From positions 1 through 56,199 of the forward strand of contig JAVHLL010000016.1 in NCBI GenBank assembly GCA_031082155.1: 56,199 nucleotides of DNA. The letters are read 5' to 3'. Under the pieces are notes generated by a model, which had not been told where the DNA came from, did no database searches, and saw only the letters and a list, made by a program, of their open reading frames with translations. This stretch comes from Thermodesulfovibrionales bacterium (GTDB lineage Bacteria > Nitrospirota > Thermodesulfovibrionia > Thermodesulfovibrionales > SM23-35). A program made the position numbers and the translations under genes. Positions 17,950 through 29,099 of this stretch are shown here, piece by piece (position 1 is the first letter of the stretch; each line of letters begins with the position of its first letter).

Positions 17950-20280
17950 TTACCAGAACCTGCATGTGAGATTGCCTCCCAGGTTATGTGTTTCGGTCTT
18001 TTTCTCGTCTTCGCTGAGGGTGTAATTATAGGTAAGCTGGAAATCGATGAACCTTGTCATATACCATAGAACATACCCGCCCATAGTATGCGTGTTGGCG
18101 GATGCTGTTTTCTCATATCTGTGCTCATACCGGAGGTTCATCCTGACCGCAGGCACTACCAGCCAGTCGACGAATGCCCCTTCAGAAATGGTTTGTTCCC
18201 CTTCCGTATCGTTAATCCTGAAGTTTCCTGAAAGACTAATGAACCTTCCGGGACGGTAGGTAACGATAAATGCTCCGTCATGGGAATGTCCGGATGTATC
18301 TCCGGAAAGGAAACTCAACCCGTAGCTCAGGTTTGCCGTCAGGTTCAGCGTGAGCCGTGCATCAAGGGTTCCCCTCACATACCATGTGGTGTTCTGCGTC
18401 TTTTCTGGAGAAGATGCAGGATTTGATAGATGGTATACCGGATAAGTCTTCGCGTTCGTATACCCGACGTCAGTAATCATATTCACATCCCTGTGCAGCC
18501 GCGATCCGATCGTAAGGAGCAAAAGGTCACTGAGCGATTGTTTCTGATCAAAACTGTAGCTGTATGTCCTGATTAGGGAGAGATTGGTATCGAGCGTAGG
18601 GAGAGGGGACGAACTGAACGTAAGGGAATAGGAATCCGACTTTATTTCGGTCTTGTTCGGATCATCCTCAGCCCTGTTGTCAAAAGCCTCGTTTCTCTGA
18701 ATTCGTGCTGTTGTTGTCAAAAAATTGGTGGTAAGCCATGTGGCGCTCGCGCCATAGGTCCTTGTCACATTGCTTTTCAGACTGGTATTTTTTTCGCTGT
18801 CAAGTTTGCTGATAATGTTTGCGAAGGCCCCTCCTATGGAACCCGGGACCGACTCAGGCTCCTGGTCGTTCCGGTTCAGGTAGTAGTTCAGGGCAAAACT
18901 CAGCCTGGTAACCGGTCTGTACGTTGCGCCAAAGTTGATTCCGTGGGTGAAAAACGTACTGATTTCAGTATTTTTGCCTTTCCCGAAGGTTTCCGTTCCC
19001 CATGCCTCTATCTCGGTGACGAACACATCGTTTATGGTTGCGGTATCCATTGTAACCGCCTTCAGGTATCGCGCATCCTGTGCAGAAGAGAGTTGCATTT
19101 CGTAGCGATAGATATGGTTAAGCGCATCGAACAACGTTATGGTTATTGTCTGAACAGATACTTCGGTCCAGGTATTGGGCAGATTGGTATTGCTTCTGTA
19201 AACTCTCCAATTGGCCGGATTGACTAAATTTATATCATTCCTGATGTCTTTATTCACATAAAGGTAAAGGGCGTCGACTGATTTGCCGGATTCGTTTAGA
19301 ACCCCTATATTGTGGTACCTGCTCCCGTTCTGTCCGATATTGATTGTGCCGCCTGAAGTCGTCGCAGGTGAATCATAGTTGCCGTCAGTAAGCGTAGGGG
19401 TCGGAACAAGCGTGTCTACCGGCGGTTGAATCTGCGTCCCGAGCCCGTACTGGCCGGATAAAGGCGTCCTCCTGACCTCTATGCTGCCGCTTTGTCCTGC
19501 GAAGCTCTCGGTCTTGTTCCGGGTATAGTTGCCCTGATACCCCGCTGTCAGACTGATGCGGTTGTTCAGAAGCGATTTGTTGTAACCGATGTTGTACATG
19601 CTGTTCAGGTTATTATTCACTGTGTTATAGACAGTTTTCAGGGGCGTCTTGTTCTCATTCCATTTGTATGAGACGTTGTACGAGAATTTCAATCCCCTGT
19701 ATGTCAGGTCGTGCCATGACGTACCAGTGAATTTCGTATCGGTGGAATCTGTCCCTCTGGGAGAGAGATAATCATAATCCCTCTGCCTGTCGAACTGGAC
19801 AGAGAGATTCGGCAATTCGTAGGGTCTCACCGTGAAACGGGAATAATAGAATTCGGTGGTCCTTCTGCTGTCATTCTGGAGATTTGCCGTGTCCCACTGC
19901 TCAAGACGCCTTGCCCCCAATTCAATTCCGTACACAGGATGCCTGAAAAACAGATCCAAACCCGGCTCCACAGCCCTCAGGTAATCCGCTGTCGTCTCCC
20001 CTCCTGAATCGGTAATATGGGTATTGGTGAGTGTCGTCCTGAGGTTCAGATGATACGAGAGAAGAGGAGTGACGCTCTTTTCGAAACGGAAATAATAGTT
20101 CTGATTAAGGCTGTCGGATTCGTTCACCTTTTGATCGTCCTCGTATCCTTTCAGATTCGTATAATTCATATTAAGCCAGGCGCTGGGTCCATCGGCGTAC
20201 GCAGCCTGAGCATACAGGACCATGGCGCTAAGCGCCAGGAGCAGAATCTGAATCGCTGCAAGTTGTTTCTTGAGCCCCAA
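17950..20280 (-). CDS. Outer-membrane beta-barrel (porin-like) protein with inserted galactose-binding-like domain
   Basis: A 776-residue protein with a TTG start at 20280 supported by GGAGGAG six bases upstream. A classic signal peptide (QILLLALSAMVLYAQAAYA) is followed by alternating aromatic/polar beta-strands throughout and a C-terminal aromatic (CRFW), the signature of BamA-inserted barrels. Residues about 295-440 break the pattern: GGTINIGQNGSRYHNIGVLN, YVNKDIRN, WTEVSVQTITITL, ARYLKAVTMDTATINDVFVTEIEAWG. These look like an F5/8-type C (discoidin/jelly-roll) domain inserted in a loop. Lying among 16- and 26-heme cytochromes, it is the natural candidate for the porin sheath of an outer-membrane electron conduit, analogous in role to MtrB/PioB or Geobacter OmbB; sequence relation to those was not established. 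Confidence 0.8.
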   Translation of the reverse strand: MGLKKQLAAIQILLLALSAMVLYAQAAYADGPSAWLNMNYTNLKGYEDDQKVNESDSLNQNYYFRFEKSVTPLLSYHLNLRTTLTNTHITDSGGETTADYLRAVEPGLDLFFRHPVYGIELGARRLEQWDTANLQNDSRRTTEFYYSRFTVRPYELPNLSVQFDRQRDYDYLSPRGTDSTDTKFTGTSWHDLTYRGLKFSYNVSYKWNENKTPLKTVYNTVNNNLNSMYNIGYNKSLLNNRISLTAGYQGNYTRNKTESFAGQSGSIEVRRTPLSGQYGLGTQIQPPVDTLVPTPTLTDGNYDSPATTSGGTINIGQNGSRYHNIGVLNESGKSVDALYLYVNKDIRNDINLVNPANWRVYRSNTNLPNTWTEVSVQTITITLFDALNHIYRYEMQLSSAQDARYLKAVTMDTATINDVFVTEIEAWGTETFGKGKNTEISTFFTHGINFGATYRPVTRLSFALNYYLNRNDQEPESVPGSIGGAFANIISKLDSEKNTSLKSNVTRTYGASATWLTTNFLTTTARIQRNEAFDNRAEDDPNKTEIKSDSYSLTFSSSPLPTLDTNLSLIRTYSYSFDQKQSLSDLLLLTIGSRLHRDVNMITDVGYTNAKTYPVYHLSNPASSPEKTQNTTWYVRGTLDARLTLNLTANLSYGLSFLSGDTSGHSHDGAFIVTYRPGRFISLSGNFRINDTEGEQTISEGAFVDWLVVPAVRMNLRYEHRYEKTASANTHTMGGYVLWYMTRFIDFQLTYNYTLSEDEKKTETHNLGGNLTCRFW

Positions 20281-20388
20281 GCAATCTCCTCCACATTATC
20301 GATCTCCCGTCCCCTAACCCATTCGATTCATTTATTTTTATATTGTTCCTTCTCAAAGATCTTGAAAATCTTTTAAGATCTTTTCCTG

Positions 20389-21990
20389 TCATTCTGGCTT
20401 CTCCGGAAACATCGCAATACCGTATGGCCTCCTGCCTACCGGAATAACCTTCTCTTCCCGCTTCGTTGTCTTGTCTACAACTGAGACGCTGTCTGACCCC
20501 CTGTTCACTACATATATCTTTCGCCCCTCAGGGTCCATGAGGAACGATCTTGGTTGACTTCCTACCGATATGGTTCCGATGACCGGTGACAACGATGTTT
20601 TCAGGGCACTCGATGCCTCTGAAAATGGCCTTAGCATTAGTATCTCTCCTGAAAATTCTTTCAAAAGATAGAGCCTGTCAAAATCAGGGTCGGAAATAAC
20701 CCCTGTCAGCGAAGCACCTACATTGCTCGTCTCGCTCACGGCCCCGGACTTGTTTCCGCCAATCACCTGTATGATGTCGATGAGGGAGAGGTTGTCATAC
20801 CCGTAATTCGCAACATAGACTTTGCCTCTTGGGTAATCCACGGTGAGCGCGATCGGGCTCCATTGGACATTGAGAGTGATTACCTCCTCAGGTCTCCCGC
20901 TTGCCCTGTCCATCTTGAGGATGGAAACATCACGTGAGTTTTTATTGGCGACATATACGTTGTAGTAGTTTCTTCGGTAATTCCTTATCGTATTCATATC
21001 GCTCATGCTCAGAAACCGTGAACTGGAGATAGTATCGACAGAAGGGTCAGCAACTATTGCTATAGGACCGTCCCCGACATTCGCACGGTCGAACTCCTGA
21101 TAGGTGGAAGCGTCTATGATCGAAACAGTGTTCGAACCGTAATTCGTTACGAAGATGAACTCTTTATCCGGTGCGACCCTCGCAACTGCAATGCCTTCAG
21201 GTTCTTTTCCGAAACGGATTGGTATCTCAACCTCAACCCGGTTATTCGTGGGGTCTATGACCGATATGCTGTTTGATCCCGAATTCGCGACATACACTCT
21301 CTGCCGCTCCTTGCTCTGGCTTACGGCAACGCCTCTCGGTTTTCTCCCCACCATGATCATTGCCACGACCTCACCTGTCTGCCTGTTTATGACGGATACA
21401 TTATCAGAGTCCTCGTTGGTCACATAAATGAGAAGACTGCTCAGTTCGGGTGTCTGCCCTCTCACATCAAATGCAGGACTGAAGAGATAGCCGTCTCCGA
21501 CCGAGGCGTCAGGGTTCCATTTCAGAAAAAGCGCGGTGTTCTGGTTTCTTTTTACTGCGATGTCTATTGCTGTCTCTATTCCTTCGGGCGGCAGAGCAAG
21601 GTGCGCTGCCCCGTCTTTTCTGTTCACCAGCGCCTGCCTGACAATGAGCTGGAGTTTCTTGTACCTGCCCTCAGGCAGCGCCTTCTCACCGAGCAATACC
21701 TGGCGTCCGGCAACCTCAGAAGACCGGATAGAAAGCGGAGCATTCATTACTTCAAGGAATGTGCCGTCTTCAGCCATGATATTGACTGCCGAAAGTTCAA
21801 CTGTCAGGTCGGTGGATATCCTTTCCGGTACTTTCAGAAAAAACGAAACCTGACCGCCGGACAACGACGAAGCGTCACTATATCTGTTGACTGACGCGCA
21901 ACCCACGCCGAAAACAAGCAGAGAGCAGAGAGCTATAAGCAACAAACGGCTACGGTTACGATGCCCGTTTCGTCTTGACTTTTTCGTCAT
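20389..21990 (-). CDS. Lipoprotein with DUF4382-like domain and YVTN beta-propeller
   Basis: 533 residues from the ATG at 21990, which gives MTKKSRRNGHRNRSR then LLLIALCSLLVFGVGC with a lipobox cysteine; the frame is open to 22059 but that part is repeat-encoded. Residues about 45-180 (mature) match the DUF4382 pattern (VSFFLKVPERIS, VELSAVNIMAEDG, LPEGRYKKLQLIV). From about 185 to the end are seven or more YVTN-type blades: IYVTNEDSDNVSVINRQTGE, VYVANSGSNSISVIDPTNN, IFVTNYGSNTVSIID, VYVANKNSRDVSIL, VYVANYGYDNLSLID, IYVVNRGSDSVSVVD. It is surface- or periplasm-anchored, probably a scaffold. Propeller proteins of NHL/YVTN type recur beside nanowire cytochromes. Confidence 0.85.
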   Translation of the reverse strand: MTKKSRRNGHRNRSRLLLIALCSLLVFGVGCASVNRYSDASSLSGGQVSFFLKVPERISTDLTVELSAVNIMAEDGTFLEVMNAPLSIRSSEVAGRQVLLGEKALPEGRYKKLQLIVRQALVNRKDGAAHLALPPEGIETAIDIAVKRNQNTALFLKWNPDASVGDGYLFSPAFDVRGQTPELSSLLIYVTNEDSDNVSVINRQTGEVVAMIMVGRKPRGVAVSQSKERQRVYVANSGSNSISVIDPTNNRVEVEIPIRFGKEPEGIAVARVAPDKEFIFVTNYGSNTVSIIDASTYQEFDRANVGDGPIAIVADPSVDTISSSRFLSMSDMNTIRNYRRNYYNVYVANKNSRDVSILKMDRASGRPEEVITLNVQWSPIALTVDYPRGKVYVANYGYDNLSLIDIIQVIGGNKSGAVSETSNVGASLTGVISDPDFDRLYLLKEFSGEILMLRPFSEASSALKTSLSPVIGTISVGSQPRSFLMDPEGRKIYVVNRGSDSVSVVDKTTKREEKVIPVGRRPYGIAMFPEKPE

Positions 21991-22145
21991 TCGGTTACGG
22001 CTACGAGGCCCGTTTCGTTTATCGGCTACGTTGTTCGTCTTTTCTGTAACCTTTACCATTTGCCGTTACCGATACGGGCTTCGTTACCGTTGCCGTTAAC
22101 CGATCTTTCTCGATACGGGCTTCGTAGCCGTAGCCGAAAAACGAT
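21940..22145. repeat. CGGTTACGGCTACG / GATACGGGCTTCGT repeat cluster
   Basis: Degenerate direct and inverted copies of GATACGGGCTTCGTAGCCGTAGCCG and CGGTTACGGCTACGAGGCCC fill the gap between the NHL and YVTN genes and run into the 5' end of the latter, where they encode an Arg/Asn/Lys-rich N-region. The adjoining 21912-21935 AAGCAGAGAGCAGAGAGC unit encodes part of the signal peptide (ALCSLLVF). Confidence 0.75.
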
Positions 22146-22149
22146 TAAA

Positions 22150-23124
22150 TTATTCATTCGGCTTGAACACCTCGATCCTGTCGTTGAAGGTGTCAGCGAC
22201 GAATATCCTGCCCTGAGAATCAACCGCTATATCTTTCGGGTACTGGAACCAGCCTTCACCCCATCCAAGGCCGCCAAATTCAAAAAGATATTTACCGTCT
22301 TTGTCGTAGACGTTTACGGTATGGCGCATATAATCCACTACATACATCCTTCCGTTGCGATTATCCACACCCACTGCATGGGGCCGGCTCAGCTTTCCCG
22401 TGCTGCCGCCCTTATCGCCGAATTTAAAAAGGAATTTCCTGTTCTCATCATAAACATAAATATGACTGACTTCCTCGCTCACAATATATATCCTTCCCTC
22501 TTTATCTATGGTTACATAGTTGACATTTACCTTCCTGCCTTCTTCCTCAGGTGAAAGAATATCTATAAACTGTCCGTCGTTATTCAGTATCACAATTCCT
22601 GGGAAAGAGTAACTGGCAACATAAATATCCCCTTTTTTATCCACAGCCAGCCTGTATGGTATAAAGGATTCGGCTCCTTCAAAGCCCTTTAAATAAATAT
22701 CCCTTGTCCATTTGAGGCAAGCATTGAAAACCGAGAGCCTGTGTTTCGGGTTCTCTTTCAAGCCTGCCTGAGCAACATAAAGATTGCCGCTCTTATCAAT
22801 TGTTAGACCCTGTGGCATATAAACTCCATCTGCTTTGCTAAGGGTAAATATGGGGAAAAAATCAGAGGTATAGATAATAACCCTCGCCTCATGATCTATA
22901 ATGTAAATTTCTTTCATAGTAGGTTCAGTAAAAATGAAAGATGGATACAATATCTTTTCGCCATTTTCATCCTCTCTTATTGCATCAAGATATGTAACTG
23001 GCAAACCTTGCGTCTGAGCATCAAGAGGAAAAGGGGTAAACAATATATTGCATAATATATACATCAAAATAATTTCTTTAAAAAGAAATCCATTTTTCAA
23101 AATAAATATTTTTTCTAATTCCAT
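22150..23124 (-). CDS. Exported NHL-repeat beta-propeller protein
   Basis: A 324-residue protein with an N-terminal hydrophobic segment (IILMYILCNILFTPFPLDAQ) ending in a likely cleavage site. Six NHL-type blades follow, each with a G-x-[IL]-[YF]-V-[AV]-x-x-x-x-x-x-[IV]-x-V-[FY] core: GNLYVAQAGLKENPKHRLSV, GDIYVASYSFPGIVIL, GRIYIVSEEVSHIYVY, GRMYVVDYMRHTVNVY, GRIFVADTFNDRIEVF. It is probably periplasmic or extracellular. It directly follows the best-expressed nanowire-type cytochrome gene (100 bp gap). NHL proteins are, from memory, regular neighbours of omcS/omcE-type genes; their role there is not known. The start has only a weak ribosome site. Confidence 0.88.
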   Translation of the reverse strand: MELEKIFILKNGFLFKEIILMYILCNILFTPFPLDAQTQGLPVTYLDAIREDENGEKILYPSFIFTEPTMKEIYIIDHEARVIIYTSDFFPIFTLSKADGVYMPQGLTIDKSGNLYVAQAGLKENPKHRLSVFNACLKWTRDIYLKGFEGAESFIPYRLAVDKKGDIYVASYSFPGIVILNNDGQFIDILSPEEEGRKVNVNYVTIDKEGRIYIVSEEVSHIYVYDENRKFLFKFGDKGGSTGKLSRPHAVGVDNRNGRMYVVDYMRHTVNVYDKDGKYLFEFGGLGWGEGWFQYPKDIAVDSQGRIFVADTFNDRIEVFKPNE

Positions 23125-23224: not shown

Positions 23225-24208
23225 CTATCTCTGTCTGCTATGACATCCGAGGCAGCCTTCAGTTCCGCTACCACCCGCTATCTGCGTAGCATTATAATCC
23301 CACCTCAGGCAGTCATTATATTCAGTCCCATGTGCCCTGTGACATGAAAGACACGTAACCCTTGCATTTCCAACAGTTTCTGTTTCAGCATTAAATCCTA
23401 AAGGATGGTTTCTCATTGCATCGGCATCGCCTGTCCATTCAGTAGCAAAATTTACATATATATCCCACGTAGTAGGTATTGCAACATCAGTAGGATGTCT
23501 TATAAATGGGCTTGCCGCATTCGTGTCATCGCTTCCATGGAAATCGCTGTGGCATTTACCGCATAGCTCGCTTATGCTTGGCCCGCCAACTGTTGCGCTG
23601 TAAACATTATGAACAGTTCCCGAACCAGAGATTAGTGCTTCCTCATAATCAGCGGCCCCGGTGCCAAGAACAGCACTTGTACCAACATAAAGTATCCGGT
23701 AGGCAGAAGGATCATGATGTCCACCCTTTATGGCAACCATGTCACTAAGATCAGTCTGATTACCATGACACCCATTAGTCCCCGCGCAGCTTAATCCGTC
23801 TGTACTGCCGGTGTACCAGCTATTTTCAGCTGCAGCAATACCAGCGGGGGCATTGGTATTACCCAAAGAATGAGCAACATCATTGTTGTTCCCAACACTG
23901 TCAGTCACTGCAAAGAACCCTCCGGCCAGACAAGCGCTACTACTGAAACTTCCTGCAGTAGATTTGACAAAGGGATAGCCATTAACATATGGGTCTGCTC
24001 CACTTGTGGTATGACAGCCAATACAATCATTTGTTAACAAAAAATCGTATGGACCACCGCTACCCCAAGAAGCATCAGGAGAGCCACCCTGGCTGTAGTG
24101 CATAGTGTGACAATTGGCGCAAGGACCACTCACTGCGGCATGTGCAACTCCACTGATAAGCACAAGGGAGAGAAGTGCAACAAGACTTATAATTATTGTC
24201 CTTTTCAT
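23225..24208 (-). CDS. OmcS/OmcE-like multiheme cytochrome, nanowire candidate 3 (with leader ORF)
   Basis: A 327-residue exported cytochrome with a textbook signal peptide (MKRTIIISLVALLSLVLISGVAHA). Five CXXCH motifs (CANCH, CIGCH, CGKCH, CLSCH, CLGCH) plus CAGTNGCHG (CX5CH). Shared family landmarks: CHTMHYSQGG, GGHHDPSAYRIL, FIRHPTDV, CLSCHRAHGTEYNDCLRWDY. It has the strongest ribosome site of the cytochrome set (AAAGGAGGT eight bases before ATG) and its ATG overlaps the stop of a 20-codon leader ORF. It also has its own long upstream region with a plausible promoter at 24569-24597. It is the most compact of the four paralogs and a good candidate for an abundantly made filament subunit. 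Confidence 0.9.
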   Translation of the reverse strand: MKRTIIISLVALLSLVLISGVAHAAVSGPCANCHTMHYSQGGSPDASWGSGGPYDFLLTNDCIGCHTTSGADPYVNGYPFVKSTAGSFSSSACLAGGFFAVTDSVGNNNDVAHSLGNTNAPAGIAAAENSWYTGSTDGLSCAGTNGCHGNQTDLSDMVAIKGGHHDPSAYRILYVGTSAVLGTGAADYEEALISGSGTVHNVYSATVGGPSISELCGKCHSDFHGSDDTNAASPFIRHPTDVAIPTTWDIYVNFATEWTGDADAMRNHPLGFNAETETVGNARVTCLSCHRAHGTEYNDCLRWDYNATQIAGGSGTEGCLGCHSRQR

Positions 24209-24267
24209 CTCTTTTTACCTCCTTTCCTGTTCGATTTTGCCTCTTTTTTAAGGATATTGATAAGCAT
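24205..24267 (-). CDS. 20-codon leader ORF translationally coupled to nanowire-type cytochrome
   Basis: The ATG at 24267 is preceded by AAAGGAGGG (eight-base spacing). It reads MLINILKKEAKSNRKGGKKR and stops at TGA 24207-24205, so its stop overlaps the ATG of the cytochrome (ATGA). The cytochrome ribosome site (AGGAGGT) lies inside the last codons (GGA GGT). The strong site, exact overlap and very basic peptide (9 of 20 are Lys/Arg) support a translated leader for coupling or regulation. No homolog is recognised. Confidence 0.6.
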   Translation of the reverse strand: MLINILKKEAKSNRKGGKKR

Positions 24268-24437
24268 TGTAAAATCCCTCCTTTCTTTAATCATTTGTTA
24301 CTTATCTATTGCTAATTTAATGCACTGTGAATGTACCACCTCACGCAAGAAATATAAAGCAATTTATATGCCAATAAATTCATTCTCTGGTGCGCTGTCC
24401 CTCAAATAGCCATAACACTTTTTTCATCATGAACTCG

Positions 24438-24527
24438 TTAATGGTATCTATCCAGCCTAAAAAGCGAGATTCCGAAATAAGATCGGAATGACAAGCTATT
24501 TATGGCACAGCATATTAATACCATTAA
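24438..24527. repeat. 90-bp inverted-repeat element in cytochrome leader
   Basis: TTAATGGTAT (24438-24447) and its complement ATACCATTAA (24518-24527) enclose an inner hairpin GATTCCGAAATAAGATCGGAAT next to ATGACA, the same end as the bipartite elements elsewhere. It would be transcribed in the leader of the 23225-24208 cytochrome. Confidence 0.6.
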
Positions 24528-28346: not shown

Positions 28347-28634
28347 ATGTGTGTTATGTTCGAAAAATTGAAATCTGTCGGCAGGAATGTGAAACATGAA
28401 CTCAGGGTGTACCAGTTTGTCCTGAAAGACAAAAGGACCCCGAAGATTTCCAAAATCCTCCTCGGTCTCGCTATCGGATATCTCCTCCTGCCCTTTGATC
28501 TCATCCCGGATTTCATCCCCGTGATCGGACATCTCGATGACTTGATTCTCGTCCCCCTCCTCGTCATCGCGGCATTGAAATTCATACCGCAGGAGGTAGT
28601 TGATGATTGCCGGAAAAGAGCGCTTCAAGTATAA
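28347..28634 (+). CDS. YkvA family (DUF1232) small membrane protein
   Basis: 95 residues with the DUF1232 core (KISKILLGLAIGYLLLPFDLIPDFIPVIGHLDDLILVPLLVIAAL, about 35-80), two hydrophobic helices separated by the PDFIPVIGHLDD loop. The family is widespread; its function is unknown. A second in-frame ATG at 28356 is an equally good start. It shares a 63-bp divergent region with scpA and is followed 33 bp later by the next gene. Confidence 0.88.
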   Translation: MCVMFEKLKSVGRNVKHELRVYQFVLKDKRTPKISKILLGLAIGYLLLPFDLIPDFIPVIGHLDDLILVPLLVIAALKFIPQEVVDDCRKRALQV

Positions 28635-28667
28635 TTGTTTTAAAAAGAAAGGAGTTCATTCCAGAGT

Positions 28668-29099
28668 ATGAATCCATCTGAAGACAGAAAACCCATCGAG
28701 CCGGCTAAAATTGTTGTCAGGTTTGCCGACGGTAAGATATTGAAAGGATTTACCCACGACTTTTATCCGAACAAATCGATATTTCATCTTTCATCAAACT
28801 TTGAAGATATCACGCAGGAAGGGGTCAAAATTCAGGTAAAAGACCTGAAAGCGGTATTCTTCGTAAAAGACTTCGCCGGTGACCCTTCATATGATGAGGT
28901 GAAAGAGTTCACGGAATCGGATCAGATTCATGGCCGGAAGATCGAGGTGGAGTTCAAAGATGGTGAATTACTGGCAGGCACAACGGTAGGGTATATTCCG
29001 GACCGTCCCGGTTTTTTCCTCTTCCCTGTCGACGCCGGTTCCAACAATGAGCGTGCCTTTATAGTAAGCGCTTCGATAAAAAAAGTACGCTTCAACTGA
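28668..29099 (+). CDS. Conserved hypothetical soluble protein (two beta-rich half repeats)
   Basis: A 143-residue protein with no signal peptide or membrane segment. Two similar halves: KIVVRFADGKILKGFTHDFYPNKSIFHL (about 14-41) and KIEVEFKDGELLAGTTVGYIPDRPGFFL (about 89-116), each followed by a strand pair ending in KAVFFVKDF or KKVRFN. The pattern K-[IV]-x-V-x-F-x-DG-x-x-L-x-G is that of small beta-barrel domains seen beside PilZ-type proteins; exact family not assigned. An AAAGGAG lies 13 bases before the ATG. Convergent with the nuoG-like gene. Confidence 0.7.
   Translation: MNPSEDRKPIEPAKIVVRFADGKILKGFTHDFYPNKSIFHLSSNFEDITQEGVKIQVKDLKAVFFVKDFAGDPSYDEVKEFTESDQIHGRKIEVEFKDGELLAGTTVGYIPDRPGFFLFPVDAGSNNERAFIVSASIKKVRFN

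Follow-up and report, generated by a model that had tools for sequence, protein, structure and literature searches.

The gene for an OmcS-like multihaem cytochrome in the window (the whole analysed stretch of 56,199 nucleotides from a Thermodesulfovibrionales bacterium) is preceded by a 20-codon leader with its own strong Shine-Dalgarno (SD) sequence, and the SD sequence of the cytochrome lies inside that leader. Judged from the sequence and from its homologs, the feature is real and recurs. We consider the leader to be the 5' half of a tandem device for translation initiation, with a probability of roughly 0.6, in which loading at the first site would increase translation of the cytochrome. 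That selection maintains the paired arrangement is very probable. We give even odds to the broader proposal of a natural twin-start device that selection preserves in OmcS-like cytochromes of Nitrospirota and of further phyla, and which would act as a booster for an abundant protein, its pair of sites constant and single indels switching between fusion and coupling.

Anatomy of the leader and its genomic setting

The elements of the region are as follows, with SD1 and SD2 denoting the SD sequences of the leader and the cytochrome, and ATG1 and ATG2 the respective start codons.

24358..24373, minus strand: sigma-54 (-24/-12) promoter TGGCATATAAATTGCT, a perfect match, predicted transcription start site near 24347
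24277..24283, minus strand: SD1, AAGGAGG, 9 nt 5' of the leader ATG, read from the sequence
24205..24267, minus strand: leader ORF MLINILKKEAKSNRKGGKKR, 20 codons plus TGA, ORF length 63 nt, putatively translated
24217..24224, minus strand: SD2, AAGGAGGT, inside the leader and 8 nt 5' of the cytochrome ATG, read from the sequence
24205..24208, minus strand: ATGA, leader stop (24207-24205) over cytochrome start (24208-24206), read from the sequence
23225..24208, minus strand: OmcS-like cytochrome, 327 aa, Pfam Paired_CXXCH_1, with a family profile leading to OmcS

On the minus strand the two sites read AAGGAGG-gattttaca-ATG (24283 to 24265) and AAGGAGGT-aaaaagag-ATG (24224 to 24206), and the leader extends from its ATG at 24267 to its TGA at 24207-24205. 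The original prediction had described two strong ribosome sites and a 20-codon leader before the cytochrome, the leader TGA overlapping the cytochrome ATG as ATGA, and the second ribosome site within the last leader codons (SD2 at 24224-24217), all of which are present. The site spacing of 63 bases given there needs correction: the distance is 59 nt, both from SD1 to SD2 and from ATG1 to ATG2, and the leader ORF itself measures 63 nt. The layout is that of a bicistronic (BCD-like) design, with a strong SD1 and start codon on a short ORF, SD2 embedded in this ORF, and a stop codon overlapping the gene start, the last of these being variable in relatives. The C-terminal part of the leader peptide is SD2 read as codons.

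The sigma-54 element (TGGCAY-N5-TTGCW) is the sole perfect match in the window, where 0.13 are expected, and an RpoN gene is present in the genome. The predicted 5' end near 24347 lies about 65 nt from SD1, 80 nt from the leader ATG and 139 nt from the cytochrome ATG; with the box upstream, both ribosome sites thus share one predicted short 5'UTR. About 100 nt upstream of the box, at 24469-24489, lies an inverted repeat with T's behind it (ATTCCGATCTTATTTCGGAAT, minus strand), present a single time in 376 kb of the genome; it may terminate transcription of the upstream genes or serve as a site for an activator. In the related loci L046 and L055, a near-palindrome, GCTTAATTNTTAAGC, is kept just 5' of SD1 and downstream of the sigma-54 box.

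RNA structure around both sites is predicted to be weaker than in shuffled sequence (z = +1.1), with no alternative hairpin predicted at the leader, and an Rfam search of the window matched no riboswitch or other known RNA. Because the predicted structure is weak, the opening of a hidden SD2 or attenuation is unlikely, and a hairpin masking SD2 was rejected as an explanation; the L215 piece, which spanned coding sequence instead of the leader, does not enter this assessment. It had been claimed that translation of the leader must open or occupy the cytochrome site; occupation follows from the geometry, and opening is not supported by the weak predicted structure.

The cytochrome has a hydrophobic, signal-peptide-like N-terminus and six haem motifs, five CXXCH and one CX5CH. 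Its assignment to the OmcS-like class is based on these six motifs and on a seven-member family profile matching OmcS (6ef8, E = 3e-17); a search with the single sequence returned no convincing solved relative and did not match OmcS, and the AlphaFold2 model, with a mean pLDDT of 33, is too poor for use. The description "nanowire-type" holds as homology to OmcS, not as demonstrated filament formation. The CX5CH motif (23765-23788, residues 141-148), which replaces a CXXCH, is invariant in 7/7 aligned family members. In a well-supported grouping (99/95), the cytochrome falls with genes from Deltaproteobacteria-labelled MAGs and not with other Nitrospirota genes, and one genome of the same genus yielded no close homolog; horizontal transfer is possible from this grouping and the missing homolog.

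Two further cytochromes of the same family precede the gene, and an NHL propeller follows it on the same strand. Besides this NHL propeller, the downstream genes (17950-23124, minus strand) encode a YVTN-type propeller and a protein of 776 aa, which matches no Pfam family and is a possible outer-membrane beta-barrel. Together, the downstream genes likely form an electron-export cluster. Elsewhere in the window (28603-29099, plus strand), an ATGA overlap also joins a short ORF with the SD sequence AGGAGGT (MIAGKERFKYNCFKKKGVHSRV) to the start codon of an unnamed gene of 143 aa; as this short ORF begins inside the end of the ORF upstream of it, the overlap may be due to chance.

Recurrence and variation among related genes

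A strict rule was used to count twin sites, defined by an SD2 of at least 7 nt, an upstream ATG 20-110 nt away, an SD1 of at least 6 nt and a frame open through SD2. Twins were found in 14/46 OmcS-like genes with an SD2 of at least 7 nt, where dinucleotide shuffles predict 0.23, corresponding to an enrichment of about 60-fold in the family; in the shuffled upstream regions of strong-SD cytochromes, a twin appeared in about 0.5-1% of genes. In the control set, which covers 376 kb of this genome plus 400 kb from two further genomes, with start-choice rules similar but not identical to those used for the cytochromes, none of the 46 comparison genes, whose SD2 is just as strong, had a twin (three genomes; Fisher 2e-5 vs cytochromes), and a general genome habit was accordingly rejected. 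Within the 376 kb of this genome, the window cytochrome is the sole twin with a frame open through SD2 among 24 strong-SD genes. The rule was set after the first cases had been seen; with L001, L010, L034 and L040 removed, 10/42 remain. Clustering at 70% identity left twins in about 11/37 (p = 5e-5) and at 60% in about 5/22 (p = 0.0025), while at 50% three clusters were left and the test had no power (p = 0.06), so the independence of the cytochromes is limited. The arrangement is not required, since 32/46 strong-SD homologs, L035 among them, lack it by the strict rule.

A sigma-54 box lies upstream of 14/19 twin-site homologs (0.02 expected). We also considered twin sites as a general habit of sigma-54 genes and rejected it: the box is found in 8/607 control genes, and the strong twin only at this cytochrome.

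A search for the same short ORF upstream of related cytochromes had been suggested, and what recurs there is the pair of sites, with a peptide that varies. The comparison of homologs identifies SD1, ATG1, the open stretch through SD2 and ATG2 as constant, and the leader peptide and its ending as variable. All 16 leaders with an SD1 of at least 6 nt are open through SD2 and none stops early, as about half would be expected to do when shuffled; the mean probability that a shuffled leader stays open is 0.50, and the product, 2e-6, is overstated as the leaders are related to one another. Likewise, none of the 16 enters the gene in another reading frame, compared to 26% expected by chance (P = 0.008). 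The leader is most commonly fused in frame to the cytochrome (13/19). Three orthologs of L040 share the peptide MD[TM][RK]ARL[RK]ISKGKEV, and the leaders of L215, L216 and L217 end in a fusion, in a gap (TAA before the start) and in a TAATG overlap, respectively (identity to L040 of 83% for L216 and 71% for L217). Orthologs that are 71-83% identical keep SD1 and the leader, and in the comparisons with G441 the sequence farther upstream diverges. L162 and L204, from the same genus and 90% identical in coding DNA, differ by a 1-nt leader indel that makes one fused and the other ATGA-coupled and that also rewrites the remainder of the peptide; in L010 and L061, another pair from a single genus, both leaders end in ATGA and the C-termini are similar. 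In a well-supported group, the window gene has as its closest relatives L034, with a fused leader, and L035, without one, and no convincing match to the leader DNA of the window, nor a close ortholog of its leader, was found elsewhere in the class. The anatomy, its recurrence, the open frame and the interchangeability of the endings are thus read from the sequences and their comparison, in which ATGA is one interchangeable ending among several. As relatives keep both sites but vary the peptide between them, the leader peptide is probably incidental, a throw-away product.

Proposed mechanism and alternative explanations

In the proposed device, transcription from the sigma-54 promoter would leave about 139 nt of 5'UTR, with almost no predicted structure around the two SD-ATG sites, and the 59-nt spacing would leave room for two initiating ribosomes. 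Ribosomes loaded at SD1 would synthesize the throw-away basic peptide, cross SD2 and stop on the cytochrome ATG, where SD2 would allow the terminating or a following ribosome to begin the cytochrome. SD2 would also take on ribosomes directly, with loading at SD1 adding to it, so that all loaded ribosomes would reach the cytochrome and output would be raised or steadied. In relatives, in-frame fusion would give the same delivery, merely lengthening the signal peptide. Ribosomes from SD1 would have to end at or near the start or read on in frame, and hence none would be wasted; the wasteful frame is the one not seen. We infer the use of both sites, re-initiation and higher output from this arrangement, and hold it somewhat likelier that the twin sites raise translation than that they do not. 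Among the three roles originally offered, coupling device, attenuator or small peptide, coupling fits best, with a change of emphasis in that neither the ATGA nor the peptide is conserved; the other two are taken up below.

A different explanation is that the second SD-ATG is an evolutionary by-product, left by a duplicated start region or a migrated start codon without any gain in translation, with harmless fused or overlapping copies tolerated and harmful out-of-frame copies removed. The L034 leader visibly repeats its own gene start (ATGAAAACAACTATGATCACATTAACC vs ATGAGACAAACCATGATCAGATTAACA), the two sites show a weak overall self-similarity (p = 0.009), and a fused extension would be lost with removal of the signal peptide. 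We nevertheless regard this explanation, in its account of both origin and tolerance, as unlikely, since such leftovers are absent from other strong-SD genes (0/46), SD1 and the leader are kept in the orthologs described above while the upstream sequence diverges, and most leaders resemble their own gene start no better than those of other genes. That leaders generally repeat their gene start was rejected, as such a repeat is clear in L034 only.

Some SD sequences stabilize transcripts, the STAB-SD of Bacillus cry3A being an example. In the same way, a ribosome that sits at SD1 or translates from it could shield the mRNA near its 5' end with the ORF being incidental, which would suit both the short distance between SD1 and the predicted 5' end and the finding that the strong SD is the best-kept element of the leader. 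A stabilizer would need neither a start codon nor an open frame, yet both are present in 16/16 leaders, without a single early stop, and we think this explanation quite improbable.

A regulatory leader, either an attenuator or a nascent-peptide switch sensing, for example, basic amino acids or haem supply, would agree with a short, basic ORF that has its own SD. Neither alternative structures nor a regulatory peptide conserved across lineages were found, there is no Rfam match, the frame is switched within a genus, and many leaders are fused to the cytochrome; an attenuator is unlikely and regulation by the leader in general very much so. A functional small peptide is suggested by the sequence shared by the three close orthologs, but is hardly credible given that the peptide is unconserved between lineages, is mostly fused to the signal peptide and owes its C-terminal part to SD2. 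Relatives that lack or shift the frame while keeping the ribosome site had been named as refuting evidence; a functional peptide fails this test in the L162/L204 pair, and the closest relatives are split, L034 having a leader and L035 none. Chance in the window alone, apart from the pattern in relatives, is equally implausible despite the differing nearest relatives and the missing close ortholog of the leader, considering the rarity of twins in shuffled sequence and their enrichment in the family.

If the tandem device is real, evolution would have repeatedly reached the layout that engineers use for high translation, and would have placed it on cytochromes thought to be wires of mineral-respiring bacteria. 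It would offer ready-made parts for the expression of multihaem cytochromes, make the start-site annotation of these genes ambiguous, and turn the close ortholog pairs into natural experiments on fusion versus coupling.

Comparison with known systems

In the open-licence papers searched, no report of twin-SD leaders before multihaem cytochromes was found. The window protein resembles OmcS of Geobacter sulfurreducens in a profile match that spans most of the protein, in its six haem motifs, and in a shared CxxCHTMHNS start and RHP...CLSCHRAH motifs. It differs in that one haem motif is CX5CH and that the single-sequence search gave no match, and the likeness is one of protein sequence.

Synthetic bicistronic designs (BCD; Makoff and Smallwood 1990, Mutalik 2013), which raise expression, share the order seen in the window: a short peptide is translated from RBS1, its coding sequence contains RBS2, and its stop codon overlaps the gene start (PMC6302717). 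In contrast to these, the window arrangement is natural, serves a cytochrome with a sigma-54 box and has weak predicted structure at RBS2, and its relatives often have an in-frame fusion instead of an overlap. Part of the synthetic boost has been ascribed to the unfolding of structured RNA, which is not predicted in the window and argues against a boost of that kind here.

The nfORF/HESP booster of Cao, Goldberg and Amit (2025) likewise places a short nonsense ORF with an internal strong RBS just 5' of the target, and increases expression up to 20-fold in E. coli whether in frame or shifted (PMC13255528). One small insertion converts the in-frame into the shifted form and vice versa, comparable to the L162/L204 pair, and a minimum of 8-10 codons is required, a length that the authors tie to double occupancy (PMC13255528). 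The natural spacings, 36-81 nt, exceed this minimum. The nfORF was engineered in E. coli and its boost measured there, whereas a boost in the window is what the arrangement would predict.

Delivery of ribosomes by short ORFs is a proposed function in a 2025 review (PMC12548453). The closest natural case found is that of the mycobacterial coupled small ORFs (RTGA overlap; Shell 2015), which are proposed to raise ribosome occupancy and in which, as here, the stop overlaps the start and the linkage is conserved more than the peptide (PMC4633059). The mycobacterial ORFs start on leaderless transcripts, whereas the cytochrome and its leader have a strong SD at both starts, and fusion predominates among the relatives of the window gene.
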